NCBI RefSeq assembly: GCF_900109465.1
Contig: NZ_FOAZ01000002.1
Span: 1 to 64,000, forward strand
Length of the DNA stretch: 64,000 nucleotides
Direction: 5' to 3'
DNA from: Streptacidiphilus jiangxiensis
Lineage (GTDB): Bacteria > Actinomycetota > Actinomycetes > Streptomycetales > Streptomycetaceae
Of this stretch, positions 5,563 through 23,027 are shown piece after piece (position 1 is the first letter of the stretch; each line of letters begins with the position of its first letter). The position numbers were made by a program, and so were the translations under genes. The notes beneath the pieces were generated by a model. That model worked only from the letters and a program-made list of their open reading frames with translations. It had not been told where the DNA came from and did no database searches.

Positions 5563-5569
5563 CTTTCTG

Positions 5570-5954: not shown

Positions 5955-6302
5955 TTAGGCACCGGTGGTGGGGTCCTGCTCGCTGCTGGCATGGCGCAGT
6001 TGTTCGTTGATGCGTAGGGCTTCTTCGAGTTGGTCTTCCAGGATGACGATGCGGCAGGCGGCCTCGATGGCGGTGCCCTGGTTGACCAGGTCGCGGGCGC
6101 GCATGGCCAGGCGCAGTTGGTAGCGGGAGTAGCGGCGGTGGCCGCCGTCGGAGCGCATTGGGGTGATCAGGCGGTGTTCGCCGAGCGCTCGTAGGAATCC
6201 GGGGGTGGTGCCGGTCATCTCGGCGGCGCGGCCCATGGTGTAGGCGGGGTAGTCGTCGTCGTCGAAGGTGTTGGCGGAGTCGGGGCTGGTCGTGGGAGTC
6301 AC
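5955..6302 (-). CDS. Short MerR-family regulator
   Basis: 115 residues, GTG start at 6302 with GAGAGG upstream. Residues about 20-75 are a MerR winged helix: YTMGRAAEMTGTTPGFLRALGEHRLI, then RSDGGHRRYSRYQLRLAMRARDLV. The GGHRRYSRYQL wing is the family signature. A short coiled coil (RIVILEDQLEEALRINEQLRH) ends the protein; there is no ligand-binding domain and no metal-binding Cys. In size and layout it is close to the HspR-type heat-shock repressor branch, which fits the cargo. A perfect 14-bp palindrome just upstream (6315-6328) could be its own operator. It does not match the HAIR consensus known for HspR. Confidence 0.8.
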   Translation of the reverse strand: MTPTTSPDSANTFDDDDYPAYTMGRAAEMTGTTPGFLRALGEHRLITPMRSDGGHRRYSRYQLRLAMRARDLVNQGTAIEAACRIVILEDQLEEALRINEQLRHASSEQDPTTGA

Positions 6303-6314
6303 TGCACCTCTCTG

Positions 6315-6328
6315 GTTCTCGCGAGAAC
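6315..6328. promoter_or_regulatory. Perfect palindrome upstream of the MerR gene
   Basis: GTTCTCGCGAGAAC is fully self-complementary and lies 12 bases before the GTG start, next to the ribosome site. This is a likely repressor site for autoregulation; the binder is not proven. Confidence 0.5.
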
Positions 6329-6335
6329 GCGTCGA

Positions 6336-6366
6336 GGGGCCCCGGGACCGCTTGGCCCGGGGCCCC
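6336..6366. repeat. GC-rich hairpin
   Basis: An 11-bp perfect stem (6336-6346 with 6356-6366) and a 9-base loop, upstream of the MerR gene on the minus strand. It has no T-run. It could insulate the MerR gene from transcription entering from the right, or lie in its leader. Confidence 0.4.
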
Positions 6367-7097
6367 GAAGGGATACATCACCATCTACCGGCCTGAGCCG
6401 GTCCTGTTCTTCCGCACCGCCCGGGGGGAGGGGGCGTGCGGGGATCGCGTAAGCGTGACCGGAAACCACCGTCCTTGCCTTGGGGTCTGCGGTATCCGCC
6501 CGGGCGCGTGTTCACCGGCCGGGCGATCCTGATGGCGCCTGCGCCCTCCTTCGTCCATCTCGTGCTGACGGGGGAAATCTTGGTACTGCCGGTCCTGCCT
6601 TGCGGCTGGGCCGTTGGCCGCCGGCCGTCCGAGCGCGGTGACCACTGCTGTCGATGCTGTCCGGCACGCGCGCCCGCAGTCATGGCGCCTTTGCCGGGTT
6701 CCCTGCTCTGGTTTTCGTGACTGCGGGCACTTCTGTAACTGCAAGGCGGCGGCCCCTGAAGAACCGCGGGCCGCCCGGTCCGGCAGCCAGCCCCGTCGCC
6801 CTTCCTGCGCTTGCCTGGCTTCGGAACTCTGCTGCCGGACCGTCGTGCGAACTTCTGTCCTGCGTACCGCCAGTTCGTGTCTGGCGGGTGTGCCCGACTG
6901 CTGACTACGACAGAAACATTAACCGCCGGCAAAGCCAATGTCTACTCCAGCGAGCATAGATTTTGCATCGGCAACGAGAGAGCTAACCTCCCGCCTGGAC
7001 CCCCTGTCCCGGGATCAAGGGCCCGCGGCACGACCGCCGGGATTGACACGCAGCGTCCCTGCGAAAGGGGTGCCCCGGCGCACTAAAATCTGGCGCC
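6367..7097. other. 730-base stretch without a recognisable gene
   Basis: Open frames exist on both strands but none has a ribosome site, family resemblance or steady codon bias. The last 60 bases hold the GvpU-like promoter region, with TAAAAT at 7084-7089 only 8 bases before the ATG, which would suit a leaderless transcript. A TTGACA at 7043-7048 is too far upstream to pair with it. The stretch may be a decayed gene. Confidence 0.4.
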
Positions 7098-7478
7098 ATG
7101 TCGAAACCCGATGGGCTGCTCGCCGACATCGCCGCGATGGTGGAGTCCGAGCACAGCAACCAGATGCCACTCACCGTGGTCGTACCCGGCGCTGTCATCA
7201 CGGGCAGGCTCGCCCCGGAAAGTCTGTGGCGCGAGCGTGTCGCCGAGGTCCTCGAAGCGTCGGAACACCTCAAGCCGTTCTCCGCGCCTTTCGCCGCGGC
7301 CGAGGCGCAGCACGCCGCCGACCGGGACGAGAGCGGACGGCCGACCCACTTGCATCTGCACTTGGCGCGGATCCTGCAGGGCAGCTACGGGCTGCCCCAC
7401 ACCGGCGGCATGTATCGCATCCGCATCGAGGACATCAACAGCTGGACCGTCGGAGACCTCAGCTACTCCGATCAGTGA
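7098..7478 (+). CDS. GvpU-like gas vesicle accessory family protein
   Basis: 126 residues from ATG 7098. A conserved core (PLTVVVPGAVITGRLAPESLW, then THLHLHLARILQGSYGLPHTGGMYRIRIEDINSWTVGDLSY) matches, from memory, proteins annotated as GvpU in actinomycetes, which are predicted to assist gas-vesicle clustering. No structural gvpA or other gvp gene is in the window, so its role here is unclear; a general stress or surface function is possible. It is the only plus-strand gene on the left half of the element. No good Shine-Dalgarno is present and the -10-like TAAAAT suggests leaderless translation. A hairpin follows the stop. Confidence 0.6.
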   Translation: MSKPDGLLADIAAMVESEHSNQMPLTVVVPGAVITGRLAPESLWRERVAEVLEASEHLKPFSAPFAAAEAQHAADRDESGRPTHLHLHLARILQGSYGLPHTGGMYRIRIEDINSWTVGDLSYSDQ

Positions 7479-7483
7479 CCGCG

Positions 7484-7532
7484 CGCCAGGACCTGGGGCC
7501 GTCCGGCGGCCTCTTGGCCCCGGGGCCTGGCG
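7484..7532 (+). terminator. Hairpin after the GvpU-like gene
   Basis: A 7-bp outer stem, CGCCAGG (7484-7490) with CCTGGCG (7526-7532), and an inner GGGGCC/GGCCCC stem. It starts 5 bases after the stop. There is no T-run, as is common for actinomycete terminators. It separates the gene from the convergent minus-strand block. Confidence 0.5.
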
Positions 7533-7603
7533 GGAGCCCGCTGGAGGAACGCGCCGCTCCCAGGATCGTCACCGGCTTGGAGGAGGCCCGGCAAGCGATG
7601 GGG

Positions 7604-7771
7604 TCAGCGGGTGGGTCGCCGGGCGCCGTGGCGGACTCTGAGCCCGCCCAGGAGCAGGGCGGCGAGGAAGACGATCACACCGATGATGAGGAGGTAGAAC
7701 AGGCCCTTGGCGACCGCGCCGATGATGCCGAGCGCGACGGCCGCCAGGATGAGCAGCAGCACGAGGACCAT
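7604..7771 (-). CDS. Small hydrophobic membrane protein
   Basis: 55 residues, ATG 7771 with AAGGGAAGG upstream. Two hydrophobic segments (about residues 2-20 and 24-44) and a basic C-terminus (RVRHGARRPTR) predict a tiny two-span membrane protein. Similar short hydrophobic proteins are seen beside stress genes in Streptomyces. The function is unknown. It is the last gene of the minus block and follows the PRC-barrel gene by 26 bases, so it is probably in the same transcript. Confidence 0.7.
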   Translation of the reverse strand: MVLVLLLILAAVALGIIGAVAKGLFYLLIIGVIVFLAALLLGGLRVRHGARRPTR

Positions 7772-7797
7772 GGCTTGGGGGCCTTCCCTTGGGTTGG

Positions 7798-8160
7798 TCA
7801 GCGTCGGGCGAGGCGGCGTTCGCCGCCCGCTCCGGGCGTGTAGGGCAGTTCGTAGTGGGCGAAGACCGCGGGTTCTTCCTCGGCGGGTAGCACTGCGTCG
7901 GTGTCGATCGCCGGCGCGTCCTTCACCTGGGACTTGGGGTAGGCGACCTTCAGGTAGCTGGGCCCGACCAGGGCGCCGTCCAGCGGCACGAACACCAGAC
8001 GGTGGCGGGTGGGCAGGCCGACGGTGACGGTGCCGAAACTGGGCTCGTCGGTGGCGGTGTCCACATACACCGACTCGAGCGTGCCGATCTTCTTGCCGTC
8101 GGCGTCGACGACGTCGTGCATGCGCCACTCCCGGACATCGGCCATCGCGATCGCCACCAC
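7798..8160 (-). CDS. PRC-barrel domain protein
   Basis: 120 residues from GTG 8160 (GGAAGGGAG just upstream; ATG 8145 is a weaker alternative). The PRC barrel covers about residues 10-85: EWRMHDVVDADGKKIGTLESVYVD, DEPSFGTVTVG and RLVFVPLDGALVGPSYLKVAYPK. The acidic tail AVLPAEEEPAVFAHYELPY is typical of actinomycete PRC-barrel stress proteins. PRC barrels mediate protein or RNA contacts; the partner is unknown. It lies upstream of the small hydrophobic protein. Confidence 0.8.
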   Translation of the reverse strand: MVAIAMADVREWRMHDVVDADGKKIGTLESVYVDTATDEPSFGTVTVGLPTRHRLVFVPLDGALVGPSYLKVAYPKSQVKDAPAIDTDAVLPAEEEPAVFAHYELPYTPGAGGERRLARR

Positions 8161-8312
8161 CGGTCTCCCTTCCTTTGCCGTGCTCCTTGGTCGCCAGGGC
8201 TGCGGGTGACCGCCGGCCCGGCGATGATCATGTCGTGTGGTGGCAGTGGGGTGCCGCCACCGCGCGCGAGGGCGGGCGGCGCTCCACTCGTGCGGGTGAG
8301 GTGTGTCCGTCG

Positions 8313-8684
8313 TCATGATCCGGGGGTGGGGCCGGTGTAGAGGAGTTCCGCGGCGGTGTGCTGGGCTTTGCGCAGGTGGGTGGCGGCCTGTTCGAGGGCG
8401 GCGATCGCGTGGCCGAGTTCGGTGGCCACGGCGGCCTGGATCAGTGAGGGGATGGGCGGGTCGTCCAGGACGGCGAGATGCTCGGCGGGCATGGCGTTGA
8501 TCGCCGCGGCGGTCTGGTGGAGGGTCAGGGGAAGCTGTTCGAGCATCCCGGCGAGGGCACCGAGGGTGTGGTGGGCGTCGATGGGGTAGGGGTAGCAGCC
8601 GGGCCGGGCGGTGAGTTCGCCGAGGCTGCGGACCTGCTCGGCCGCGGAGGCCGCGGCCTGGTGCGGGCTGCGGACGCCGGTCAT
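8313..8684 (-). CDS. Hypothetical helical protein
   Basis: 123 residues. The ATG at 8684 overlaps the stop of the zinc-ribbon gene (ATGA), so translation is coupled. It is mostly alpha-helical: AAASAAEQVRSLGELT, then HTLGALAGMLEQLPLTLHQTAAAINA and LGHAIAALEQAATHLRKAQHTAAELL. I see no signal peptide or known motif. Such proteins recur in actinomycete accessory regions as unnamed partners of the preceding zinc-ribbon protein. Confidence 0.6.
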   Translation of the reverse strand: MTGVRSPHQAAASAAEQVRSLGELTARPGCYPYPIDAHHTLGALAGMLEQLPLTLHQTAAAINAMPAEHLAVLDDPPIPSLIQAAVATELGHAIAALEQAATHLRKAQHTAAELLYTGPTPGS

Positions 8685-9103
8685 GGCCGGCTCCGGTCCG
8701 GTGCAGGCCGCGCCGGGTCGGGAACCGCGTCATCGATGGCGGGCGGGCCCAGCTGGTCCGGTTGGCGGTGGGTGTGGGCGCCGAGCATCGGGGCGTGGTG
8801 GCGCTCGGCGCGGTGACCCACCGGGTCGGTGACCTGTTCGCGGGGCCGGCCGTCCGCGCCCGGTGGAGTGAGGACGGGGCGGCGGGCAAGGATGCGGCCG
8901 ACCCAGTGGCGGCCGCAGCCGGGACAGGGCTGCGCGCCGCTGGGGGTGTAGGGGGACTCGGCCGGGTGACCGTCGAGAGCGAAGTACTCCCAATCCTGGC
9001 TGGTGTCGTCGGTGTAGCGCTGGACGTCGTAGTCGCAGCTCCACTGGTGCCAGCAGTGGCCGCAGGTGAACTCCACCCGTTCCACCGCGAGTTCGGTGAT
9101 CAT
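8681..9103 (-). CDS. Zinc-ribbon protein
   Basis: 140 residues, ATG 9103 with GGGAGGTGA upstream. It has FTCGHCWHQW near the N-terminus (CxxC) and PCPGCGRHWVGR around residue 60 (CxxC), enough for one zinc ribbon split by about 40 residues. DWEYFALDGHPAESPYTPSGA lies between them. The C-terminal 60 residues are Pro/Arg/His-rich and probably disordered. I recognise it as a recurrent Streptomyces hypothetical but know no function. It is the upstream partner of the 8313-8684 gene. Confidence 0.65.
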   Translation of the reverse strand: MITELAVERVEFTCGHCWHQWSCDYDVQRYTDDTSQDWEYFALDGHPAESPYTPSGAQPCPGCGRHWVGRILARRPVLTPPGADGRPREQVTDPVGHRAERHHAPMLGAHTHRQPDQLGPPAIDDAVPDPARPAPDRSRP

Positions 9104-9150
9104 CGGTTGTTTCACCTCCCAGCCCGGGGCCGGGGCCCTGCCCCGGACGT

Positions 9151-9459
9151 TCAGTCGCCGGGCAGGGTGTGGATGCGGACCGGTCCGGCCACCACGGTGG
9201 CGCCACGCGGCCGGGCCGGCTCCCGCATGGGCCAAGATCGTGCTTGGGCCCGTTCCGGTGTCAGTTCCTGTGGTCGGATCCGATCCTGTGCCGCCGGTCT
9301 GAGCAGGCGGTAGGCGGCGACGATCTCGGCGAGGCGGGCGGGGGAGGCGGGGTCGGGATTGGCGTCCGGGTGCCAGGCCCGGTAGGCGCGGGTGATCTGC
9401 TCCGGGCCGGCTCCCGGCCCCAGTCCAAGCACCCGCAACGCCTCGGTCCGGCTGCCCAT
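9151..9459 (-). CDS. Minimal J-domain (DnaJ-like) protein
   Basis: 102 residues. The ATG at 9459 is preceded by GGGAGG; the GTG at 9474 would run through that ribosome site. Residues about 5-55 read as helices I-III of a J domain: RVLGLGPGAGPEQITRAYRAW, the HPD tripeptide (HPDANPD), then ARLAEIVAAYRLL. J domains stimulate the ATPase of Hsp70. The protein lacks the Gly/Phe region, zinc repeats and substrate-binding domains of full DnaJ, and no dnaK is in the window, so it would have to act on the host Hsp70. The C-terminus is Pro/Arg-rich. Confidence 0.75.
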   Translation of the reverse strand: MGSRTEALRVLGLGPGAGPEQITRAYRAWHPDANPDPASPARLAEIVAAYRLLRPAAQDRIRPQELTPERAQARSWPMREPARPRGATVVAGPVRIHTLPGD

Positions 9460-9470
9460 GGCCACCTCCC

Positions 9471-9785
9471 TCACACCGCCCTGACAGGTCTTCGACCCGT
9501 ATCAGCCCTGGCCGGAGGACTTCGCACCCTCCCCGACGCCGCCGAGGGCGCACGGTGCGCGCCCGACGGGGGCCACTTCGGGATATCCCAGGCGGGGCGG
9601 ACAAGCCACGGGGGCGTCCCCGCGGGGCGGTCGGTCGGCGGGATGCGGTCCGGCGGGGGCGGCACGCAGTCGTGTTCGGCCAGGTCCCGCAGGTCGGAAG
9701 CCAGAAGGTCGGGATCGGACCAGACCAGCTCCCAGAAGGCCTCGTCCACGTCCACGGCCTCGGTGGTGTACGTCTGCCAGGTCAT
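9471..9785 (-). CDS. Hypothetical protein
   Basis: 104 residues from ATG 9785. The N-terminal half is acidic and well conserved in style (TYTTEAVDVDEAFWELVWSDPDLLASDLRDLAEHDC); the C-terminal half is Pro/Arg-rich and probably disordered. It ends 11 bases before the J-domain ATG, consistent with one transcript. The function is unknown. The ribosome site is weak (GAGG), and longer in-frame starts upstream cannot be excluded. Confidence 0.55.
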   Translation of the reverse strand: MTWQTYTTEAVDVDEAFWELVWSDPDLLASDLRDLAEHDCVPPPPDRIPPTDRPAGTPPWLVRPAWDIPKWPPSGAHRAPSAASGRVRSPPARADTGRRPVRAV

Positions 9786-9932
9786 GGTGGCTGCCTCGCA
9801 GAGGAGTCGGGGTGTCGCGCGGACCGACCGGGGGGATGTGCGTGGTCCGCGCGACACCGTTTCCTATGGGGCACCAGGCCCGACGGGGGGACGGGCCTGG
9901 AGTCGTGGGATGCCCGGGTGCGGTGAGGGGTT

Positions 9933-9971
9933 GCCGTGCGGGCGCCGGGGGGATTGTTCCGCCCGCACGGC
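9933..9971 (-). terminator. Hairpin between hsp20 and the downstream genes
   Basis: An 11-bp perfect stem (9933-9943 with 9961-9971) and a 17-base loop, in the 220-base gap between the hsp20 stop and the next minus-strand gene. There is no T-run. Together with the hairpin at 9990-10019 it probably attenuates or ends hsp20 transcription. Confidence 0.45.
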
Positions 9972-9989
9972 CGTTCTCCCTTTCCCGCG

Positions 9990-10019
9990 TCCAGGCCTGA
10001 GGGCCAGGTCAGGCCTGGA
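9990..10019 (-). terminator. Hairpin overlapping the hsp20 stop codon
   Basis: TCCAGGCCTGA (9990-10000) pairs with TCAGGCCTGGA (10009-10019) around an 8-base loop; the right arm includes the TGA of hsp20. It may terminate transcription or protect the 3' end of the message. Confidence 0.45.
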
Positions 10020-10443
10020 GTTCCTTGCGGTCGCTGCCGCCGCTGATCTGGATCTTGCGGGGCTTGGCGGTCTCGGCGACCGGGATCGTGAGGGTCAGCA
10101 CGCCGGCCTCGTAGGCGGCGGAGATGTGGTCGGTGTCGAGGGTGTCGCCGAGGAACAGCTGCCGGGAGAACACTCCCAGCGGCCGCTCGGAGACCTGGAC
10201 CTCGGCGCCGTCGCCGCGCTGGGTGGGGCGGCGTTCGGCCTTGACGGTGAGCACGTTCTGCTCCACGTCCAGGTCGATCGCGTCCGGGCTGATGCCGGGA
10301 AGGTCGAACTGGACGTAGAACGTGTCGCCGTCGCGCCAGGCGTCCATCGGCATCGCGGACGGTCGCGACCAGGTTCCGGTCGTGCCGAACATCTGCTGGG
10401 TGAGCCGGTCCAGCTCGCGGAAGGGGTCAGTGCGCATCAACAT
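10009..10443 (-). CDS. Hsp20/alpha-crystallin small heat-shock protein
   Basis: 144 residues, ATG 10443 with GAGGAGG upstream. The alpha-crystallin domain covers about residues 33-130: [42 protein letters not shown] and the [12 protein letters not shown] strand. The C-terminal tail carries KIQI, an I/V-x-I/V motif that docks between dimers in small Hsp oligomers. It is an ATP-independent holdase that keeps unfolding proteins soluble for Hsp70 or Hsp90. The N-terminal arm is short ([13 protein letters not shown]), as in the Streptomyces Hsp18 class. Its promoter (10496-10524) shares motif and spacing with that of the second hsp20. Confidence 0.95.
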
Positions 10444-10495
10444 CGTCGAGCCTCCTCGTCGAATCCGGTTGCAACATCGACGCGCTCACACATCC

Positions 10496-10524
10496 GTGAT
10501 AGCACGTCGTCCAGGAAGTGACAA
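10496..10524 (-). promoter_or_regulatory. hsp20 promoter with embedded RheA-like operator
   Basis: On the minus strand, TTGTCA (-35) and TATCAC (-10) are 17 bases apart. The spacer holds TGTCACT-N5-GACGACG (10505-10523), a degenerate copy of the TGTCATC-N5-GATGACA operator described, from memory, for RheA of Streptomyces albus hsp18. Identical spacing recurs at 11451-11479. Confidence 0.75.
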
Positions 10525-10531
10525 GTTCTTC

Positions 10532-10552
10532 GTGTCGCTTGATGGACGACAC
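10532..10552. repeat. Inverted repeat upstream of the hsp20 promoter
   Basis: GTGTCG-N9-CGACAC lies 8 bases upstream of the -35 of the first hsp20. It resembles the half-sites of the adjacent operator (TGTC/GACA) and may be an auxiliary site. It also lies just before the stop of the STAS gene. Confidence 0.4.
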
Positions 10553-10563
10553 TTCAGGGATGG

Positions 10564-10932
10564 TTACGCGTGGTGGGTGAACAGGTGATGGGTGCCGGTG
10601 GCCTTGAGCAGCCGGGCCACCAGCGGCGGGGTGCCGCGCAGCACCGGCCTGGGGCGGCCGAGCTCGGCGGCGAGGTTGCGGGCGGCGACCAGCGCGGCCA
10701 CGGCCCGGCAGTCGGCGAACGTCACGCCCGACAGGTCGACCACGATCCCGGCCGGATGGCGGCGGACCGCCTGCAGCAGCCGGGCGCGCAGGTCCGGCGC
10801 GGTGGCCAGATCCACCTCGCCGTTCGCGGACACGACACCCGCCACGGCCGCTCCGCGCGGGCGCTTCGCGGCACGCCGCCCAGGCGGCGGGCCGGCCTTG
10901 TGTCGGCACGGGGCCTCGGTCAGGGTGCTCAC
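10564..10932 (-). CDS. STAS-domain protein (anti-sigma antagonist-like) lacking the phospho-Ser
   Basis: 122 residues from GTG 10932, overlapping the stop of the second hsp20 (GTGA). After a basic N-terminus, residues about 30-115 have the STAS fold: GEVDLATAPDLRARLLQAV, IVVDLSGVTFADCRAVAALVAARNLA, then RPVLRGTPPLVARLLKATG. In SpoIIAA-type antagonists the VTF strand is followed by D-S-S/T-G with the serine phosphorylated by an anti-sigma kinase; here it reads ADCRAV, so the acceptor is gone. It cannot be switched in the usual way and may be a constitutive antagonist or a stressosome-like scaffold. It is co-transcribed with hsp20. Confidence 0.8.
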   Translation of the reverse strand: MSTLTEAPCRHKAGPPPGRRAAKRPRGAAVAGVVSANGEVDLATAPDLRARLLQAVRRHPAGIVVDLSGVTFADCRAVAALVAARNLAAELGRPRPVLRGTPPLVARLLKATGTHHLFTHHA

Positions 10933-11384
10933 GCCGCGGCGGGGGCCGTGGCGTCCTGCTTGGGGCGCGGCTGCGTGCCCGCGGAGCCCTGCACGGTGAT
11001 CCTGCGGGGCTTCGCAACCTGCTTGACCGGCACGGTCAGGGTCAGGACGCCGTCGCCCAGAGCAGCCTGAAGGCGGCCCGGGTCGAGAGTGTCGGCCAGC
11101 TCGATCCGGCGGGCGAACACCCCGTGCCGGCGCTCACTCGCCTCGACGCGCGCCCCCTGGCCCAGTTGGGCGGGGCGGCGCTCGGCCCGCACCGTCACCA
11201 GCCGGCCGGTCACCTCCACATCCACGGCCTCGGCCGGGATGCCGGGCAGGTCGAGCGCGATCACGAACCGGCCGCCCTCGCGCCAGGCGTCCACGGGGAT
11301 CGGCGCCGGCCAGGACACGGAGCCCGGCCGAGTCGTCCGGACCGTCGGGTCCACCTGGCGGGTCACCGCAGTGCGCATGAACAT
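10929..11384 (-). CDS. Hsp20/alpha-crystallin small heat-shock protein (second copy)
   Basis: 151 residues, ATG 11384 with GGAGGTG upstream. The alpha-crystallin domain covers about residues 30-130: VDAWREGGRFVIALDLPGIPAEAVDVEV, VRAERRPAQ, GVFARRIELADTLD, and the DGVLTLTVPVKQ strand. The tail has an ITV motif (I-x-V), the dimer-docking signature. It differs from the first copy in its longer, Lys/Pro-rich C-terminus, so the two are paralogues rather than a recent duplication. It is the first gene of an operon with the STAS protein and is divergent from the HSP18-type regulator at 11508; both promoters share the intergenic operator. Confidence 0.95.
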   Translation of the reverse strand: MFMRTAVTRQVDPTVRTTRPGSVSWPAPIPVDAWREGGRFVIALDLPGIPAEAVDVEVTGRLVTVRAERRPAQLGQGARVEASERRHGVFARRIELADTLDPGRLQAALGDGVLTLTVPVKQVAKPRRITVQGSAGTQPRPKQDATAPAAA

Positions 11385-11450
11385 CGTCGGACACCTCCGG
11401 TCCACAGGGACTTCTCCTTGCGTCGCGCCGGTGTCGGTGCGACGGAAACC

Positions 11451-11479
11451 GTTGTAGCATGTCGTCCAGACGATGACAA
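11451..11479 (-). promoter_or_regulatory. Divergent hsp20/regulator promoter with RheA-like operator
   Basis: Minus strand: TTGTCA (-35), 17 bases, TACAAC (-10). The operator TGTCATCGTCTGGACGACA (11460-11478) differs from TGTCATC-N5-GATGACA at one position. It overlaps the promoter, as expected for a repressor, and lies 30 bases upstream of the regulator ATG on the plus strand, so the regulator could control both sides. Confidence 0.8.
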
Positions 11480-11507
11480 ACACGCTGTCAGCGAAAGAGT
11501 GACCAGC

Positions 11508-12188
11508 ATGGACGTGCACGACCACACCGGCGAGGCCGGACCGGCCTCGTTCCTGGCCGCCGCCGCCGCTTTGGGCATGATGGACGCCGCCGCCCGCACC
11601 GCCCGCCACGCACCCGCCGACACCAGCGACCAGGACGACCCCCGCCAGGCCCTCGCGGCACTGATGCTGCTGCGGCACGTGCGCGAGGAACTCGCCGGCT
11701 GGGAGACCGGCCTGATCGAAACCGCCCGCACCGCCGGCGCCACCTGGGCCGACCTCGCCGAACCCCTCGGCGTGCAGTCCCGCCAGGCCGCCGAGCGCCG
11801 CTACCTGCGCCTGCGCCCCGACCAGGCGGCGGGCACGACCGCGGGCAGCACCGGCGAGCAGCGCGTCAAGGCCGCCCGCGACCAGCGCGCCGCCGACCGC
11901 GCGGTCACCGGCTGGGCCCGCGACAACGCCGCCGACCTGCGCCGCCTCGCCGGCCAGATCGGCGCCCTGGACGACCTCACCACCAGCGCCGCACCCGCCA
12001 TAGAGCGCCTGCTGGACGCGCTCGGCGACAACGACCCCGCCCGCCTGCTCGCCCCGCTCGCCGAAGCCCGCCCCCACCTGGTCGAGGCCGGCCACCCCAA
12101 GATCGCCGACCGGCTCGACCAGCTCACCGCCCGCACCGATCAGCTGCGCGCCGACAACACCCGGCAGCGCCGCACCCCCACCCCATGA
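11508..12188 (+). CDS. HSP18-type transcriptional regulator
   Basis: 226 residues from ATG 11508. The middle has a helix-turn-helix: ETGLIETARTAGATWADLAEPLGVQSRQAAERRYLRLRP. Then comes TGEQRVKAARDQRAADRAVTGWARDNAADLRRLAGQI, a pattern I associate with proteins annotated as HSP18 transcriptional regulators in Streptomyces. The C-terminal third is helical, with heptad-like Leu/Ala spacing that could dimerise. Divergent placement 123 bases from hsp20 around a near-perfect operator supports a direct role in small-Hsp control. It is not of the ArsR-like RheA fold, so whether it binds this operator is open. It is coupled to the next gene by ATGA. Confidence 0.7.
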   Translation: MDVHDHTGEAGPASFLAAAAALGMMDAAARTARHAPADTSDQDDPRQALAALMLLRHVREELAGWETGLIETARTAGATWADLAEPLGVQSRQAAERRYLRLRPDQAAGTTAGSTGEQRVKAARDQRAADRAVTGWARDNAADLRRLAGQIGALDDLTTSAAPAIERLLDALGDNDPARLLAPLAEARPHLVEAGHPKIADRLDQLTARTDQLRADNTRQRRTPTP

Positions 12189-12544
12189 CCACCGGCGGCA
12201 TCCCGGTCAGCGTCAGCCGGGATCCGTTCACCGCCGGCAGCCTGGCCAAGCTGACCTGGTTCCTGCGCGACCGCATCCGCGACGCGATCGCCGCCGGTCA
12301 CCCCCACGCCCGGCAACTGCACGACAGCGTGGAGGACGCGGTGCGCGGAATCCTCGACTACATCGACCAGGCCGCCCACACCGCGGACCCGCTCACCCTC
12401 GCGCCCGCCCGCGTCCGGGCCCACGCCCTGTGGAGCGCGCTGCAGACCGCCGCCGACTTCTGGCACGACCACCCCCAACACCCCGACCACACAGTCACCC
12501 AGACCCCCAAGGATCCGCGCCGCGTCTACGCCGCCGCCAGCTGA
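12185..12544 (+). CDS. Hypothetical protein coupled to the HSP18-type regulator
   Basis: 119 residues, ATG 12185 overlapping the upstream stop. It is helical and rich in His and Ala: LTWFLRDRIRDAIAAGHPHARQLHDSVEDAVRGILDYIDQAAH, then VRAHALWSALQTAADFWHDHPQHPDH. There are no membrane segments. It has the look of a small cytoplasmic accessory protein; I do not recognise a family. Coupling implies equal synthesis with the regulator. Confidence 0.6.
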   Translation: MTTGGIPVSVSRDPFTAGSLAKLTWFLRDRIRDAIAAGHPHARQLHDSVEDAVRGILDYIDQAAHTADPLTLAPARVRAHALWSALQTAADFWHDHPQHPDHTVTQTPKDPRRVYAAAS

Positions 12545-12603
12545 CACCCGCCCAACCGCCGCCAGAACGCAACCCGAAACCGAATCCGTGCAGGAGGCAA
12601 CCG

Positions 12604-12921
12604 ATGCCGCTCACCCGGCCGCTGCGCGCCGCCCTCCACCCCCGCGCCCAGACCGGACCACACCCCGGACAGACGCTCACGGTGCGCGGTGAGATCGACT
12701 TCCACACCGTGGGCCAGCTCTGCCGGCAGATCGAGGACCAACTGCCGCAGGCCGGGCACCTCACCCTCGACCTGACCCGAGCCACGTTCTACGACCAGGC
12801 CGCGATCGACGCCCTGGCCGAAGTACAGACCCGCGCCACCCGAGCCGGCCACCGCCTCACCGTCACCTGCTCCCCCACTGTGCCGCGGTCGCGCACCACA
12901 CCGGCCCTGACCCCCGCATAG
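12604..12921 (+). CDS. Second STAS-like protein, also without the phospho-Ser
   Basis: 105 residues, ATG 12604 with AGGAGG at good spacing. Residues about 25-85 have the STAS pattern: TLTVRGEIDFHTVGQLCRQIEDQL, HLTLDLTRATFYDQAAIDALAEVQTRA, then GHRLTVTCSP. In the usual place of the phosphorylatable serine (D-S-x-G) it reads YDQAAI. With the STAS protein at 10564 this makes two degenerate antagonists on one element. The C-terminus is a short Pro/Thr tail. A hairpin covers the stop. Confidence 0.65.
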   Translation: MPLTRPLRAALHPRAQTGPHPGQTLTVRGEIDFHTVGQLCRQIEDQLPQAGHLTLDLTRATFYDQAAIDALAEVQTRATRAGHRLTVTCSPTVPRSRTTPALTPA

Positions 12922-12938
12922 CGGGAAACCGTTCCCGC
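12921..12938 (+). terminator. Small hairpin at the stop of the second STAS gene
   Basis: GCGGGAA (12921-12927) and TTCCCGC (12932-12938) with a 4-base loop, starting at the last base of the TAG. It is probably an attenuator before the next gene at 12972; the stem is short and no T-run follows. Confidence 0.4.
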
Positions 12939-12971
12939 CTCCGACCCCTTCGACCCCTTTCCCGATGACCT

Positions 12972-13451
12972 ATGACGCCTTCCGAACTCCAGCAGCTGCT
13001 GATCGAGCGCACCCCCGCGATCCCCGGCATCGCCGACGCCGCCAAACGCGACGACGACAGCCCCTACGGACTGACCGTCACCCTCACCGATGGCGGCCGG
13101 GTGTGGTGGAGCATCACCGGCGCCAGCGGGCCGGCACCGGCCACCGCCACCACAGCCGACAGCGGCGACATCGACGCCACTGCCGTGGAGGTGCCCGACC
13201 TGACCGGCACATCGGTCCCAGTGGCCCACGTCGAACAGGCCCTGGTCGCCACCGCCACCGGCGCGGACGACCCCTCCAGCGGCGTCGTGCGGGCCGACCG
13301 GTACAGCCTGCGCCCCAACCCGCCCGCCGTCCGCTACGGCGCCACCCTGGAATGCCGCGACGGCTGGAAGCTCTTCCTGTCCTGCTACGGCACCGCCCGC
13401 CCCGGCCGAACCAAACCCGACCAGCCATACCAGCCCCTCAGCCACGTCTGA
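12972..13451 (+). CDS. Hypothetical protein, paralogue of the pseudogene at 1138
   Basis: 159 residues from ATG 12972. Residues about 15-50 (IPGIADAAKRDDDSPYGLTVTLTDGGRVWWSITGASG) and 110-150 (YSLRPNPPAVRYGATLECRDGWKLFLSCYG) parallel the two halves of the interrupted gene at 1138-1557. The middle is longer and Thr/Ala/Asp-rich. There is no signal peptide. The function is unknown. It lies 97 bases upstream of htpG in the same direction and may share its transcript. Confidence 0.6.
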   Translation: MTPSELQQLLIERTPAIPGIADAAKRDDDSPYGLTVTLTDGGRVWWSITGASGPAPATATTADSGDIDATAVEVPDLTGTSVPVAHVEQALVATATGADDPSSGVVRADRYSLRPNPPAVRYGATLECRDGWKLFLSCYGTARPGRTKPDQPYQPLSHV

Positions 13452-13548
13452 GACCCCGTGTCCGGGCAGAGCCTCCCCGCCCGGGGCCCCTCGAACCTGA
13501 CCGACTTTTCCCCCGCACCAACTTCCACCACATCAAGGAGACGCTTCC

Positions 13549-15522
13549 GTGGCCAGCACGACCGAGACGCTCGAGTTCCAGGCGGAGACCCGCCAACTGC
13601 TACAGCTGGTGATCCACTCGATCTACTCGAACAAGGACATCTTCCTGCGCGAGCTGATCTCCAACGCCTCCGACGCCCTCGACAAGCTCCGCCTGGAATC
13701 CCTCACCAACCCCGACCTCGACGCCGACACCTCCGACCTCCACATCACCCTGGAAACCGACAGCGACGCCCGCACCCTGACCGTGCGGGACAACGGCATC
13801 GGCATGACCCGCGACGACGTCGTCGACCTGATCGGCACCATCGCCAAGTCCGGCACCGCCGGGCTCCTAGCCAAGATCAAGGAAGCCAAGGAGAACAAGG
13901 ACACGGACACCGACGCGGCCAGCCTGATCGGGCAGTTCGGCGTCGGCTTCTACTCCGCCTTCATGGTCGCCGACAAGGTCACCCTCCACACCCGCCGCGC
14001 CGGCACCGACCAGGGCACCGTGTGGGAATCCGACGGCGAGGGCACCTACACCATCGCCGACGCCACCGACCTGCCCGTCGGCACCACCGTCACCCTGCAC
14101 CTCAAGGCCGAGGACAGCGAGGACGGCCTCGGCGACTACCTGGCCGCCTGGAAGATCCGCCAGATCGTCAAGCAGTACTCCGACTTCATCCGCTGGCCCA
14201 TCCGCATGGCCACCCAGGCCACCGGCACCGGCACCGAAGATGACGCCGACAGCAGCATCGACACCGACGGCGAAACCGCAGGCACGCTGGAGACCCTGAA
14301 CTCGATGAAGGCCCTGTGGGCCCGCCCCCGCGCGGAGGTCAGCGAGACGGAGTACCACGAGTTCTACCGGCAGATCAGCCACGACTGGCAGGACCCCGCG
14401 CAGACCATCCACATGCGCGCCGAGGGCACCTTCGAGTACGAGGCGCTGCTGTTCCTCCCCGCCCACGCGCCGTTCGACCTGTTCTCCCGCGACACCAAGC
14501 GCGGCGTGCAGCTGTACGTCAAGCGGGTGTTCATCATGGACGACTGCGACGCGCTGATGCCGAACTACCTGCGCTTCGTCAAGGGCGTCGTCGACGCCCA
14601 CGACCTGTCCCTGAACGTCTCCCGCGAGATCCTCCAGCACGACCGCCAGATCACCGCCGTGCGCCGACGCCTCGTCAAGAAGGTCCTCGGCGCGATCAAA
14701 AACCTGCAGACCACCAACACCGACACCTACCTCAAGGTGTGGGAACAGTTCGGGCGGGTGATCAAGGAAGGCCTGATCGAGGACCGCGACAACACCGACG
14801 CCCTGCTGGAATTGGTCTCGGCCGCCTCCACGCACGACCCGGAGAAGACGACCACGCTGCGCGAGTACGTCTCCCGGATGAAGGACGGCCAGAACACCAT
14901 CTACTACCTGACCGGCGAGAACCGCGCCATGGTGGAGAACTCCCCGCACATGGAGGCCCTCACCGCCAAGGGCTACGAGGTCCTCATCCTCACCGACCCC
15001 GTCGACGAGGTCTGGACCGACCAGGTCCCCGCCTTCGACGGCCACCGCTTCCAGTCCATCGCCAAGGGCCAGGTCGACCTCGACGACACCGACACCGACA
15101 CCGAGGACAGCGAGGAGGCTAAGGCGAACAAGGCCCGGCAGAAGCAGGACTTTGCCGCTCTCCTCGCCTGGCTGCAGACCACCCTGGACGAGCACGTCAA
15201 GCAGGTTCGCCTGTCCACTAGGCTCACCACCTCCCCGGCTTGCCTCGTGGGCGACGCCCACGACCTGACCCCCACCCTGGAGAAGATGTACCGGGCCATG
15301 GGCCAGGACCTGCCCACCGTCAAGCGGATCCTCGAGCTCAACCCCACCCACCCCCTCATCACCGGCCTGCGCGAGGCGCACGAGACCAACAGCGACGATC
15401 CGGCGCTCGCGCAGACCGCCGAACTGATCCACGGCGCGGCCCTGCTCGCCGAAGGCGGCGACCTGCCCGACCCGGCCCGCTTCACCCGCCTCCTGGCCGA
15501 CCGCCTCACCAAGACCCTGTAA
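13549..15522 (+). CDS. htpG: Molecular chaperone HtpG (Hsp90)
   Basis: 657 residues (Escherichia coli HtpG is 624), GTG start with AAGGAGAC upstream. The N-terminal GHKL ATPase domain shows LFLRELISNASDALDKLR-type helix I (residues about 30-45), DNGIGM (ATP lid base), GTIAKSG and GQFGVGFYSAFMVADKV. The middle domain has GVQLYVKRVFI and LNVSREILQ, with the catalytic Arg conserved in the latter. A charged insert rich in Asp/Thr/Glu precedes the C-terminal dimerisation domain (ILELNPTHPLI). HtpG refolds clients with Hsp70. It is unusual for a mobile element to carry a full Hsp90; with two small Hsps and a J protein it makes a chaperone set. A hairpin follows the stop. Confidence 0.97.
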   Translation: MASTTETLEFQAETRQLLQLVIHSIYSNKDIFLRELISNASDALDKLRLESLTNPDLDADTSDLHITLETDSDARTLTVRDNGIGMTRDDVVDLIGTIAKSGTAGLLAKIKEAKENKDTDTDAASLIGQFGVGFYSAFMVADKVTLHTRRAGTDQGTVWESDGEGTYTIADATDLPVGTTVTLHLKAEDSEDGLGDYLAAWKIRQIVKQYSDFIRWPIRMATQATGTGTEDDADSSIDTDGETAGTLETLNSMKALWARPRAEVSETEYHEFYRQISHDWQDPAQTIHMRAEGTFEYEALLFLPAHAPFDLFSRDTKRGVQLYVKRVFIMDDCDALMPNYLRFVKGVVDAHDLSLNVSREILQHDRQITAVRRRLVKKVLGAIKNLQTTNTDTYLKVWEQFGRVIKEGLIEDRDNTDALLELVSAASTHDPEKTTTLREYVSRMKDGQNTIYYLTGENRAMVENSPHMEALTAKGYEVLILTDPVDEVWTDQVPAFDGHRFQSIAKGQVDLDDTDTDTEDSEEAKANKARQKQDFAALLAWLQTTLDEHVKQVRLSTRLTTSPACLVGDAHDLTPTLEKMYRAMGQDLPTVKRILELNPTHPLITGLREAHETNSDDPALAQTAELIHGAALLAEGGDLPDPARFTRLLADRLTKTL

Positions 15523-15531
15523 CCCCCGTGG

Positions 15532-15570
15532 GGTGCGGCCGACCGGCTACGCGACCGGGCCGGCCGCACC
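15532..15570 (+). terminator. Hairpin after htpG
   Basis: A 10-bp perfect stem, GGTGCGGCCG (15532-15541) with CGGCCGCACC (15561-15570), loop 19 bases, starting 10 bases after the htpG stop. There is no T-run. It probably ends or attenuates the htpG transcript. Confidence 0.6.
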
Positions 15571-15724
15571 GCATGCCCGACACCGCCACGACGCGCCCGG
15601 ACAGCGTGCGCGAAACGTCTGTGCACGCGGGTAGCCAGGCAGAACCGAACCCACCGCTGTTTTCGGCGCCCAGAACGGAACCGGCCGCTGCCGACGGCCC
15701 CGACTGACCACGGAGACCTCAAAC

Positions 15725-16372
15725 GTGTACGAGTACACCGACCGCAAGAACCGCACCCTGACTGAGCGCATCGCCGACGCCGCTGAACGCCGCCCCGCCA
15801 AGGGCGGCACCGAGCAGGACAGGGCCACCGCGACCGCCCTGCTCGCCGACATGCTCCAGGCCGCTGCGAAGCACGGCATCGACCTCGACGCCCTCGACCT
15901 GGTCACCGACCTGCCCGGCGGCTGCTACCGCGCCGTCACCAGGCACGGCGACTTGGCCGACCGCGTCAGCACCGCCGCCGAACGCCGACCCGCCCACCCG
16001 CGCACCGAGCAGGACAAGACCGCCGCGACCGCGCTGCTCGCGGACATGCTCCAGGCCGCCGCGAACCACGGCATCACCCTGGACACCTTCGACTGGGTCA
16101 CCGACCTGCCGAGCACCTGCCTGCGTGCCGTGGCCCGGCACCGCGAACTGGCCGACCGCATCAACGACGTCTCCGAACGCCGCACCACCCCCGGCACCGA
16201 AGAGGAGAAAGCCGCCGCGACGGCCCTGCTCGCCGACATGCTCCAAGCCGCCGCCCAGCACGGCATCAACCTCGACGCCTTCGACTGGGTCACCGACCTG
16301 CCCGGCGGCTGCCTCGCCGCCATCGCCTCCAAGCTCCGGGCACGCGCCACCCAGTGGGTCACCGCCAGCTGA
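15725..16372 (+). CDS. Protein made of three tandem 65-residue repeats
   Basis: 215 residues from GTG 15725. Three copies of a unit run end to end with a period of about 65 residues (195 bases). Each has ADR(I/V)..(A/V).ERR, then TE(Q/E)(D/E)K.AATALLADMLQAAA.HGI.LD.(F/L)D, and ends with (W/L)VTDLP..C..A(V/I). Each unit should be two or three helices plus a Cys near its end (one Cys per repeat). There is no signal peptide or membrane segment. I know no family for it. It is the last cargo gene before the recombinases and reads with htpG. Copies two and three are the closest to each other, which suggests stepwise duplication. Confidence 0.75.
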   Translation: MYEYTDRKNRTLTERIADAAERRPAKGGTEQDRATATALLADMLQAAAKHGIDLDALDLVTDLPGGCYRAVTRHGDLADRVSTAAERRPAHPRTEQDKTAATALLADMLQAAANHGITLDTFDWVTDLPSTCLRAVARHRELADRINDVSERRTTPGTEEEKAAATALLADMLQAAAQHGINLDAFDWVTDLPGGCLAAIASKLRARATQWVTAS

Positions 16373-16383
16373 ACACGCCAAGC

Positions 16384-16395
16384 CCCATGCATGGG
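16384..16395. repeat. Perfect 12-bp palindrome between convergent genes
   Basis: CCCATGCATGGG lies in the 118-base gap between the repeat-protein gene and the recombinase operon. A second short inverted repeat (CGCGAA-N10-TTCGCG) follows near 16432-16453. Possibly a bidirectional terminator; weak. Confidence 0.3.
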
Positions 16396-16490
16396 ATCCA
16401 CGAAGCCGGGTCCGCCCGCAACGGTGCTCCGCGAATCAGCCCAGGTTCGCGAGGATGTCCAGCGGGGCGGGCGGCTCCGGTCCAAATGGA

Positions 16491-19035
<2,545 letters not shown>

Positions 19036-19039
<4 letters not shown>

Positions 19040-20766
19040 GGCGTGAGCTCTCCCCGGAAGACGTGGTCGATGATCTCCCGGTCGCGGTCCGTCGCCCGAG
19101 ACAGCGCGGCATCCCACGCTGTCTCGTTCACCTTGGACCGCAGGTCGGTTAGCCGCTGGAGGTGCTGGTCCCAGCGCTTGCGCCACAGCTCTTCCGGCCA
19201 GGCGGAGCGCATCGCGATCAGTTGGCGGTGCAGGAGCGCGAGCCGCGGGTGGTGTCCGTGGTGAACCCTCGCGTTCTCGCAGGCCAGGCAGAGCAGGAAG
19301 TCGGCGCCGCAGCCACCGTCCGGACCGGGCCAGGGGGTGGAGCGCTCATCCGCGCAGTCCGCGGTAGCGGTCTCCTGGTGCTCGGGATCGGCGAAGGTGG
19401 CGAGCTGGCCCTTGAAGGTGTACTCGCGGGCCTGCTGGAGGGCCGCTTCGGCTCCGGCCGCGATCACCTCGACAGCTCCCTGCTGGACGTTCCGGTCGGG
19501 CAGAACGTAGACGCTCTCATGGGTTCCGCGACTGTGCTGCAGCGGCTTGCCCTCCCTAACGACGGCCGTGCGCCGGCTCCGGCGAAACGGGGAGCCGACA
19601 CCGTGCGAGGTCGCCCAACGTCGCGCGTCCGCCTTGGTCACGCCGAACGACAACGGCCATACCGGACGGGGCTGGTCAAGATCGGAGTCCGGCCGCCCCG
19701 GACTGTGCAGCCGGGCGACCATCAGAAGGTCGACACCGGGAGCGATGACGGCTCCCATCGCCCTGGCATGCTGGGTGGCCTCCAGCGCCAGCGTGATCAG
19801 TCGGCCTGGGGAGTCGGCTCCGGAGTCGGTGTGGTTCTCCGTGTCGAACCACCGTCCGCTGCCCCTGCGGCGCTTCTCGATGGTGACGGTGTAGGTCACC
19901 GTGGTCGCCTCGCCCACTGAGGCTGTCGTGACGGGGACCGGCAGCCGGTTGTAGGTCGAGTGGTTCCAGCCGAACCGGTCCGTCATCAGCACGGCCAGGG
20001 AAGTCAGCTCCCGCCTGGTCAAGAACAGGCGTCCCCAGGTGTAGACGCGCGTGGTCCCTCCCAGCAGAACGCGGCTGCTGCCGGGGATCTTGCCATGCGT
20101 GAGCCGGGGGATGTCACCCGTGGTGGCGATGTGCTGGAGGAGCTGGCTGACCTGCCACTCAACAGTGCCCTCGGTCAGCTCCCCGGCGCGAAAGCGGCCA
20201 AGGAGAGCCGTGTTCTCCCGAATTCGCAGCAGCGCTGGCCGAAAGCAGCGCTCGGCAGCCAGCATCACCGCAGCACGTTCGGACGGCTTGTAGGAGGACT
20301 TCCCTGAGATCTTGCCCTTGTTCGGCACCGGTCGGGCCAGTTCTTCCGCCGCGGGGCCGCGGGCGAGGCGCGGATCCTGGTTCAGCAGGGTCCTCATCTT
20401 GGCCATGGCCTCGCGGCCGCCGGGGGTGTCCTTGTGGTTGTTGCGCCAGAGCTTGAGGGTGGCCGCGGTCAGGTCCTCGAGGTCCTGCGCCGGCTGCCCC
20501 TGAACCTCGAGGAACCGGGCGAAGACCAGCAGCGACTGCCAGTAGGCAAGGCCGCTGGCGTGGCTGTGCCAGGCCAGTGACTGGTCTGCGTAAAGCCGGG
20601 CCAGCGAGCGGCGCATCGGCTCCGGGACGGGCATCTTGGCGAAGTCGAAGACCCGCCCGTAGCCGTCCTTGTTGATCACCGTGACCTGCAGCCCGTTCAG
20701 AGCCAGGCGCTCGGCTGCCTGGAAGTCCGCCGGCGGCAGGACCGCCTTGCGCCCTCGGCCACTCAT
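19036..20766 (-). CDS. Second large protein of the recombinase trio
   Basis: 576 residues from ATG 20766 (ATGA with the upstream gene). There is an N-terminal helical domain (LAYWQSLLVFARFLEVQGQ), a middle with SLLVLMTDR-like and beta-rich parts, and a Cys/His-containing segment (C..D, GGCGADFLLCLACENARVHHGHH) that suggests zinc binding. The classical R/H-x-x-R/H/Y boxes are hard to place: SPFRRSRRTA and HSRGTHESVY may be remnants. It is most likely a diverged recombinase or an accessory factor that acts with the two others, as in three-gene recombinase elements. Its place in the middle of the operon supports this. Confidence 0.65.
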
Positions 20767-22308
20767 GACACCTCCAGCGCAGGCAGCGCCCCGACCAGGT
20801 ACTCGATGTCCTGGATACCGGTGGTCTCGCGGGCCAGTCGCGCGAACAGGCTGTTCATGTCCCCGCCTTGCTCCTCGTCCGGCCGGTGGTCGTCGAAGGC
20901 GAGGACCGACTCCAGGTGCAGGTGCATAACCGGGGCGAGGTAGTGCTCCTTCGTCGTCTCCACGTCCCGGTGTCCGAGCAGCGTCTTCACCAGCCACCAC
21001 GGATCGCCGTAGAGCTGGGCGAAGTCGCGCCGGTCTGCGGCGGTCAGCCCGTACTTCTTGTCCATCAGCTCGTTGAGCAGGATCAGCATGTAGAGCGCCA
21101 TCGAGTGCCGCATGGAGTGCGGCGTGGCGTACGGAACCCGCCCGCGGACCTCCGCGACCCGCAGTAGCCGAGGTGCCTCCCGCTCCTGGGCAGAGAGCAG
21201 CGCCTGCTCACACCGCTGGTTCGCCTGCCGGAACACGGTGTTCCACCGGTCCGGCAGCATGGGCAGTCCCTGCTCGGTCAGCCACAACCACGCTGGCTCC
21301 GGGCCTTCCGGGCCTTCGACGAACAACCACTGCCGCTCACGCCAGTCGAGCAGGGTCAAGTCGCGCCGGCCCTCGGCGCCGTCACGGTCGACCCAATGAA
21401 CCACTGTGGTGCGGCCCGATGTGACCTTGGTGATCAGCCGCATCTGCGGCAACCTTTCGTAGCGCCCCCTGCCTCTGGGCCCGCTCGACGGCCCAGGCCC
21501 GCTCCGATTCCGCATACGCGCTGACCTGCCGCAGCGAGTCGACCGACGCGTAGAAGGTCCGGTCCCGTTTGGACCGGGACAGCGCCCGGGCCACCTGCCC
21601 GTGGCAGTAGCGCCCCGAGCGAAGCGGACGTGACGGCACTTCGAACGTGAGCAGCGCGCCGGACTCCTGCCGCCGCAACCCCGAGCTGAGCGTGAACCCG
21701 ACGAAGGAGGTGTTTCGCAACTCGGTGCGCCCGTCCCAGCCCCCCATTGGCGCCCCGTCAGGGCCAAGCCCTCGAAGGCCCACGTCCTGCCAGAGCGCCC
21801 ACGTCCGTGGGGTCAGCCAGGAGACCCGCGAGCTGCGGGCATGGGGAGCGCGGTCCGTCCGACGACGGCTGTCCACTGGCAGCGGAGCGACCCTCGCCCA
21901 CCGGTAGAGCCGCGTGAAGGCCGGAGCCTCTCGATCCCACTTCGTCCCGCTGATCCGGGCCGGATTGAGCGGTGACTCGCACCGAAACTCCCGGTAGGCC
22001 CGCAAGTCCTCGCGCGTAGCGTCTCGCCATGGGATCCCGCGTCTCCACAGCCAGGTCAGCAACAGCCGGATGTCGGTCGCGTAGTTGCGCCGCGTCTCCC
22101 GCTCGAGAGGACGGAACTCCGAGGAGAGCGCGAACTGCAGCAGCTCTCGGTCCACTGTGAAGTCGGGCCGAACGAAGACCGGATCACCCGGCCGAAGCCC
22201 CACACGATCAAGCGCACCTGGAAGGTCCTGAACCCCGAGCACGCCCTCGTCCGGCAGCGGCCCCCACCGTTCCGGATCCGGAACGAAGACCAGCAACCAC
22301 TCGTCCAC
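20763..22308 (-). pseudogene. First tyrosine recombinase of the trio, frameshifted
   Basis: Starts at GTG 22308. Frame A encodes a helical core-binding domain (RRNYATDIRLLLTWLWRRG) and box I (SSGLRRQE). After QRQG it runs into an unrelated tail ending near 21382. Frame B, from about 21465 to 20763, carries RYERLPQMRLITKV, box II (HSMRHS), LLGHRD and the nucleophile EHYLAP. Joining the frames gives a normal 514-residue integrase. The break is at a run of five C (21465-21469, five G in the coding strand); one base fewer restores the frame. Causes could be mutation, sequencing error or, less likely, programmed slippage. The active site is split, so as written this gene is dead. Confidence 0.8.
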
Positions 22309-22336
22309 CTACACCCCCGTGAACCCTTTGAACTCA

Positions 22337-22358
22337 CTCAAGCATCAGGGAAGCACAG
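22337..22358. repeat. Right end of the stress-island element
   Basis: CAGGGAA (22346-22352) followed by GCA (22353-22355) is the inverse of the left end. Just inside lies ACTCACTCAA, which shares CACTCA with the left subterminal region. The NUDIX-GFA coding sequence resumes at the GCA. Confidence 0.65.
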
Positions 22359-23027
22359 GTAACTGTCTCGGACGGGGCCAGTCACGGTGTACGCGACGGT
22401 GCCGCACTGGCACCTGCCCGTCCTGGTCCCGGGCGCGGCGGCCGGTTCGCTCGGCTGGCTGGACACGGGCAGTTGGACCAGAGCCCGCTGCACGCCTTCG
22501 CGGAGCCGGTCGTCGACCTGTGCGTCCATCGGTCGCCAGGCGGTGGCGTGCACTTCGTCGGCCTGCAGCCGGAAGTCGGTGCGCCCGGTCGTCAGCAGAA
22601 AGCAGAAGTCCAAGTGGAGGTGGTCGGGTTCGCCGCGGGTCTCGCGCCCGGGGATCGGGAACACATCGATGTGCACGGGCGCGTCCAGCAGCCACACCAG
22701 GTCCTGCGGCTTCAGGCCGACTTCTTCCTCCAGCTCCCGCAGGACGGCGCCAGTGAGCGAGGCATCCTCCTCTTCAAGGTGGCCTCCGATCGCGGGCAGC
22801 CACTTCCCGCTGGCCGCGTGGGCGATGTGCAGGACCAGGCCGTCCGGGTTCAGCACCACGGCGCTGGCCGTCGCGTGGCCGCGCCACTCGCGCCGGTCAG
22901 TCAGATCCACGCCCTGGTCCAGCAGCTGGATCAGCGGATCCACGAAGTCACGCTGCTCGGGCCTCGTGGCCAGGTAGGCGGTCACGGTCCTACGCAGATG
23001 ATCAGCGGTGATGCCCAAGGCGCACAC
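22338..23027 (-). pseudogene. NUDIX hydrolase fused to the 5' part of the split GFA domain
   Basis: 229 residues as it now reads. The NUDIX domain covers about residues 50-190 with a Nudix box near 81-103 (GGHLEEEDASLTGAVLRELEEE, the GX5EX7REUXEEXGU pattern intact), so pyrophosphohydrolase activity may persist. From about residue 204 comes the start of a GFA fold: TGRCQCGTVAYTVTGPVRDSYLC. Then four element-derived residues (FPDA) and a TGA at 22338-22340. The lost part (CxCxxC onward) is at 5235-5549. Before insertion this was probably one NUDIX-GFA fusion of about 330 residues. GTG/ATG starts upstream of 23027 are not evident. Confidence 0.8.

Follow-up and report, generated by a model that had tools for sequence, protein, structure and literature searches.

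Strand-biased circularizing integrative elements (SE) carry the genes intA, tfp, intB and srap, which encode, in this order, a recombinase, a protein without a clear catalytic set, a large recombinase and a small protein. The RHRY motif characterizes the first and third proteins, while the second combines a recombinase fold with the absence of this motif. Circularization of SE is strand-biased and leaves no empty site. All of their core genes are needed, their median size is 15.7 kb, and they are reported from Gammaproteobacteria only (PMC10214605). They have inverted ends, a six-base spacer and few target sites, with repeats of 13–19 bp given for known SE. GInt contain the four-gene operon ginABCD, consisting of three recombinase-type genes and one small gene, with cargo after the operon; they insert in genes with six-nucleotide staggered joints, all core genes are needed, and the protein without the full motif is the third one, GinC (PMC5385486). 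Tn554 and Tn554-related elements of Actinobacteria are site-specific, have a six-base footprint, and encode a shorter and a large tyrosine recombinase together with a small TnpC-type protein (PMC10214605, PMC3414803). Tn554 itself has three genes, tnpA, tnpB and tnpC (PMC10214605), and two-recombinase Tn554-related sets are described in Actinobacteria (PMC3414803). RIT elements (recombinase in trio) have three overlapping recombinase-type genes, and the archetype, about 3.5 kb long, encodes proteins of 315–410 aa that all possess a catalytic Tyr (PMC3414803, PMC10214605).

The locus analyzed here lies in the window, a stretch of 64,000 nucleotides from the 93-contig draft genome of Streptacidiphilus jiangxiensis, and the recombinase operon forms the left part of a 16.8-kb integrative element (Table 1). 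Its genes, which overlap by ATGA, resemble those of SE in order and size; the proteins have 516 (intact relative), 576, 714 and 135 aa, compared with 545, 614, 671 and 161 aa in the SE of pAQU1, which was identified by its place beside the GMA gene. The ends are also alike, with a target that is split between them, and target sites are few. Joined ends would give CAGGGAA-N6-TTCCCTG, that is, imperfect inverted repeats with a 6-bp spacer, and the size of the element is near the SE median. On the other hand, its repeat, with seven perfect bases and 14 of 24 matching overall, is shorter than those given for known SE, and its host is an actinobacterium. Comparison by hhalign with the four proteins of this one SE, using single sequences, gave probabilities of 1.1, 0.4, 0.1 and 12.7% for genes 1–4, respectively, the small proteins being the closest, and at most 0.4% for the cross pairs. 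Since the similarity to the pAQU1 proteins was not significant, the element was not filed as a member of SE. It is an SE-like actinobacterial variant, and its analogy with SE and GInt is a functional one only.

The element shares with GInt the composition of the operon, the position of the cargo, the insertion in a gene and the six-nucleotide joints. It is set apart from GInt, as described, by gene order, because the protein without a clear motif is encoded by gene 2, whereas gene 3 keeps R365, H527 and Y540. It resembles Tn554 in its site specificity, its six-base footprint and its pair of recombinases with a small protein, but it has four genes, and the description of Tn554 includes no counterpart of gene 2. 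From the RIT archetype, with which it shares three overlapping recombinase-type genes, it differs in the sizes of the three proteins, the fourth gene and the length of 16.8 kb. A search of the open-licence literature found no published description of this actinobacterial four-gene class.

Table 1. Positions of the element, its genes and its flanks in the window
Feature	Coordinates	Strand	Remark
Whole integrative element, 16,803 bp	5550..22352	-	Left end 22352, right end 5550
Left end TTCCCTGATGCTTGAGTGAGTTCA	22329..22352	-	
Right end ...GAACAGAAAGACTTGACAGGGAA	5550..5573	-	Inverted repeat with left end at 14/24 positions, perfect over the first 7
Target gene, 5′ part (NUDIX and start of GFA-type domain)	22353..23027	-	Last six bases CTGTGC, 22353-22358
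Target gene, 3′ part	5235..5549	-	Begins with TGCTGC at 5544-5549
Gene 1, N-terminal ORF with box I, 308 aa	21382..22308	-	Out of register over its final 27-28 residues
Gene 1, C-terminal half (HxxR, H, Tyr)	20763..21476	-	+1 frame
Five-G run, frame change	21465..21469	-	
Gene 2, 576 aa, without clear catalytic set	19036..20766	-	
Gene 3, large protein (714 aa) resembling tyrosine recombinases	16895..19039	-	
Gene 4, 135-aa small protein	16491..16898	-	
Cargo, Hsp90	13549..15522	+	
Cargo, ORF with Hsp20 domain	10929..12095	-	True start probably later
Cargo, STAS domain	10564..10932	-	
Cargo, Hsp20	10009..10443	-	
Cargo, weak J-domain ORF	9151..9474	-	Below Pfam cut-off
Cargo, MerR-type regulator	5955..6302	-	

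Recombinase operon and element ends

The reading frames of genes 2–4 are uninterrupted, and all three share an ATGA overlap with the preceding gene, in agreement with the sequence-only reading. Among 23 relatives of gene 1, R212, R400, H446 and Y456 were invariant and H397 was conserved in at least 90%. Among 22 relatives of gene 3, R365, R502, R505, H527 and Y540 were invariant, with R at the position where H is expected. The predicted model of gene 2 had a mean pLDDT of 70, and its top Foldseek matches were tyrosine recombinases (best E 0.078, none at 0.001). For gene 1, the intact version from relative L003 gave a poor model, with a mean pLDDT of 49, which was set aside. Profile searches gave faint matches: one sub-threshold Pfam match for the N half of gene 1, weak Phage_integrase matches for gene 3 in 7 of 22 relatives, and two weak integrase matches in PHROGs for intact gene 1. 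NCBIfam yielded no match at 0.001, and in the PDB profile search the best E value for gene 1 was 0.51 (XerD) and gene 3 had no match.

The termini of the element are TTCCCTG and CAGGGAA. The end sequence TTCCCTGATG was found exactly, a few dozen bases 5′ of gene 1, in 42 of the 47 named relatives defined below; of the exceptions, L016 begins within the gene, the sequence deviates in L039, and L018, L047 and L048 are either without it or themselves incomplete. The gene side of TTCCCTGATG is shared and the flanks beyond it vary, and blastn matches of close relatives to the window end at 22355–22361. Plasmid copies from S. cellulosae and S. sp. F2 have a piece of the GFA gene after the cargo, which located the right end, ...CTTGACAGGGAA; its position at 5550–5561 of the window sets the length of the element at 16,803 bp. 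In-silico removal of the element rejoined the flanks in frame into a 327-aa NUDIX-GFA protein, and the stop codon of the truncated 5′ part of the target comes from the element end. The name GFA comes from the annotation of genes in L058 and L059 and from the motif, and Pfam recognized only NUDIX in the 5′ part. All nine displayed relatives had a left flank with a GFA-type start ending in PH(L/T)C.

Both ends were found in 6 of the 14 sequences examined, delimiting elements of 16,803, 17,942, 12,770, 8,554, 7,508 and 8,936 bp. L061 showed the right end only, and the other seven showed the left end only within the examined stretch. The six bases adjoining the two ends were the same in two of the six (L058 and L100) and different in four (the window, L059, L097 and L103).

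The heat-shock cargo (5955–15522) lies between gene 4 and the right end. Other Streptomyces plasmids have similar htpG-Hsp20 neighbourhoods, the 15 matches listed reaching no more than 37% coverage of an 8-kb query, and a search of distant sequences using the cargo returned no plasmid with 80% coverage. In four of six plasmid records, the other two being L061 and L062, arsenic, thioredoxin or cation-transport genes are located downstream of gene 4. Outside the element, beyond the NUDIX gene, the window has a MobC-type mobilisation gene (26973–27590) and an adjoining 584-aa ORF (25215–26969) that looks relaxase-like and had no Pfam match.

Frame break in gene 1

The sequence-only reading had placed the catalytic boxes of gene 1 in different frames, and this was confirmed in the given sequence. 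Box I (GLRRQE) lies in the N-terminal ORF, HSMRH, LLGH and EHYLAP lie in the +1 frame, and the switch between them occurs at the five-G run. Both halves aligned well with the eight nearest relatives listed (L002–L009), with identities of 85–88% for the N half and 79–82% for the C half, although the N half of L005 is in two pieces; the break is thus more than a chance pattern of ORFs. The N frame remains open for 27 codons beyond the run, and its stop lies about 615 nt upstream of the start codon of gene 2. Gene 1 occurs once in the draft genome (a single match, 100%), its C half had one match at E ≤ 0.001, and no further close copy of gene 1 was found in a search of 14 genomes of the genus.

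A pattern scan of species genomes returned 57 stretches. In 47 of them a relative of the C-terminal half of gene 1 is encoded (the named relatives), and 45 of these reach the site of the break. The longest G run at the site was two in 6, three in 34 and four in 5 of these 45, and none had five Gs, so that the survey of relatives proposed in the sequence-only reading revealed a run that is not conserved. Over the 20 codons preceding the site, 44 of the 45 were in frame. The exception, L005 from S. katrae, has a break of its own a few codons upstream, in another G-rich stretch (L005:2289–2389). The alignment with homologues showed the in-frame sequence in nearly all relatives, but not in every one of them. 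In the family set of 394 genomes, 86 had some DNA match, the window's own included and mostly short; 29 loci were kept, and all 26 that reach the site were in frame. Some of these are copies from the same strains as the named relatives, and hence the two sets are not independent. The second-best DNA match to the window in this family search was 83% identical. Among the relatives compared, the frame break is private to the window copy.

No stop was found in either half of gene 1 outside the shifted tail. In the comparison of the window with L003, the N half had a dN/dS of 0.10 and the C half one of 0.22, against 0.10 and 0.20, respectively, in the intact pair L003–L015. Both halves appear to be under purifying selection, and because they are still constrained like the intact pair, the break is either recent or an error of the draft.

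An intactness test was passed by gene 1 in 37 of the 47 named relatives and failed in 10. Frame breaks are present in L005, L013, L014 and L032, two in-frame stops in L012, an N-terminal part without a match in L018, termination at or near the catalytic Tyr in L045 and L046, and fragments in L047 and L048. Breaks or partial deletions also affect genes 2 and 3 in several relatives. Decay is thus frequent and is not limited to one place.

We consider it probable that a private and recent change in the length of the G run broke gene 1 of the 16.8-kb element, leaving gene 1 probably inactive and the element immobile. Such a change would put the catalytic half out of frame, and the product would keep box I and lose HxxR, H and Tyr, so that it would probably be inactive. 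If all four core genes are needed, as in SE and GInt, the element would neither excise nor integrate by its own enzymes; no second gene 1 of the same kind that could help it was found in the draft assembly. Since ribosomes would stop about 615 nt before gene 2, the lost ATGA coupling may lower genes 2–4. The mutation is mildly favoured by the nine G or C runs of at least five bases in genes 1–3, including one of six Gs in gene 1, since among the nine only the run at 21465–21469 coincides with a break, and the ten relatives that fail the intactness test show that decay is common. The strong conservation of both halves is, however, also expected from an error of sequencing or assembly, in a short run of Gs and a draft of high GC content, in which case gene 1 would be intact and the element may be active. 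The 93 contigs of the draft, the absence of stops outside the shifted tail, the purifying selection throughout and the 44 in-frame relatives all agree with an error, whereas the intact frame at the other long runs and the broken copies of gene 1 in other relatives speak against it; we regard an error as rather unlikely.

A position of the break in a homopolymer, in a gene that is otherwise unbroken, would also fit a slippage site, in transcription or as a +1 shift in translation, that yields a little full-length recombinase, and the separate break of L005 in another G-rich stretch points the same way. Five Gs would in general make a poor slippage site. The runs of two to four Gs in all 45 relatives and the in-frame sequence of 44 of them argue against slippage, as do the 27 open codons of the N frame past the run, which leave no stop at the site. 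A conserved switch was thus rejected: neither a slippery site nor a frame offset is conserved in the homologues compared, and the proposal of the sequence-only reading that the run sets the recombinase level was not supported. Because nearly all relatives are unbroken at the site, ordinary decay or an error of the draft is indicated instead, and slippage in the window copy is very improbable. Gene 1 might also be made as two polypeptides, the C-terminal one starting from an ATG (21515) that lies in the C frame, 15 codons ahead of the break. This ATG is present and both halves are conserved, but the 18 bases preceding it show only a weak GGCAGG stretch, and the C half would be without box I. 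No relative, named or from the family genomes, is split at the site, on which ground the reading was rejected; we see hardly any chance that it applies. The private change in run length accordingly remains the preferred account, and the break itself is of little weight, the window copy being probably stuck.

A second element in recombinase genes

A second element was observed in many different tyrosine recombinase genes, including gene 1, inserted immediately behind the codon that follows the catalytic Tyr (Tyr+1). In L062 (S. mirabilis plasmid pI), L045, L121 (identical with the copies L069 and L098) and L131 (identical with the copy L091), it interrupts gene 1, or a distant homologue, at a single codon immediately following HYL or IYL, and the inserted sequence reads AACCCTC[A/G]GGAATTGCATC... 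In L062, the insert extends over about 12532–17254, the right edge being approximate, and gene 1 resumes afterwards. Its recombinase of 373 aa matched XerC and related models, with scores under their cut-offs; the insert further carries genes for a helix-turn-helix protein of 113 aa and an integrase of 807 aa, both so named in the annotation, and a HAD-type gene. By its gene sizes, the second element may be Tn554-like.

With up to two mismatches, the left end of the second element was found at 28 places in 22 of the 394 genomes, and not in the window's genome. For the analysis of flanks, L118 (N-masked) and L130 (contig end) were dropped and L045 and L062 were added, giving 28 distinct readable flanks. 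A tyrosine-recombinase active site directly precedes the insertion in 19 of these as judged by eye, and in 13 as judged by a simple regular expression; the flanks of L104, L106, L107, L109, L110, L111, L122, L124 and L129 are unlike recombinase genes. Phage_integrase of Pfam matched 13 of the 20 flanks tested at E ≤ 0.01, two of them below the curated cut-off, and all of these matches end at position 165–166 of the 172 in the profile. The seven flanks without a match were L114 and L119 (both gene 3-like), L131 (gene 1 homologue), and L110, L111, L124 and L129 (unlike recombinases). T at −6 and A at −5 each occurred in 26 of the 28 flanks, and the recognized DNA may therefore be simpler than the active site. 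After the insertion the Tyr is still encoded and is followed in frame by a tail from the element, NPRELHQTGE or a similar sequence.

Two left ends lie 1.2 kb apart in L121 (1501 and 2700; G209:C2:63941 and 65140), where the inner one seems to lie behind the catalytic Tyr in the recombinase gene of the outer copy. In L046 (4782–4819) and L081 (2809–2846), gene 1 passes directly into 38 bases that share 97% identity with the right end that the second element has in L062. This right end resembles the target where GHSD is coded. Narrow literature searches found nothing on such targeting of active sites.

We tentatively consider it possible that these elements constitute an unrecognized actinobacterial class in which gene 1 is lost both by private mutations and by a hyperparasite that docks after the Tyr codon, plus one codon, in gene 1 and many other tyrosine recombinase genes and exchanges their C-terminal tail for its own of the NPRELHQTGE type. 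This reading covers a four-gene SE-like class, possibly moving by copy-out/copy-in, and a hyperparasite of recombinase-borne mobile DNA, its own kind included.

A parallel four-gene system in actinobacteria would provide a second model of four proteins carrying out one site-specific integration, with defined ends, a defined target and intact relatives on plasmids as its assets. The landing of a second element on the active-site codon, if true, would give mobile elements an uncommon means of competing or of hitch-hiking.
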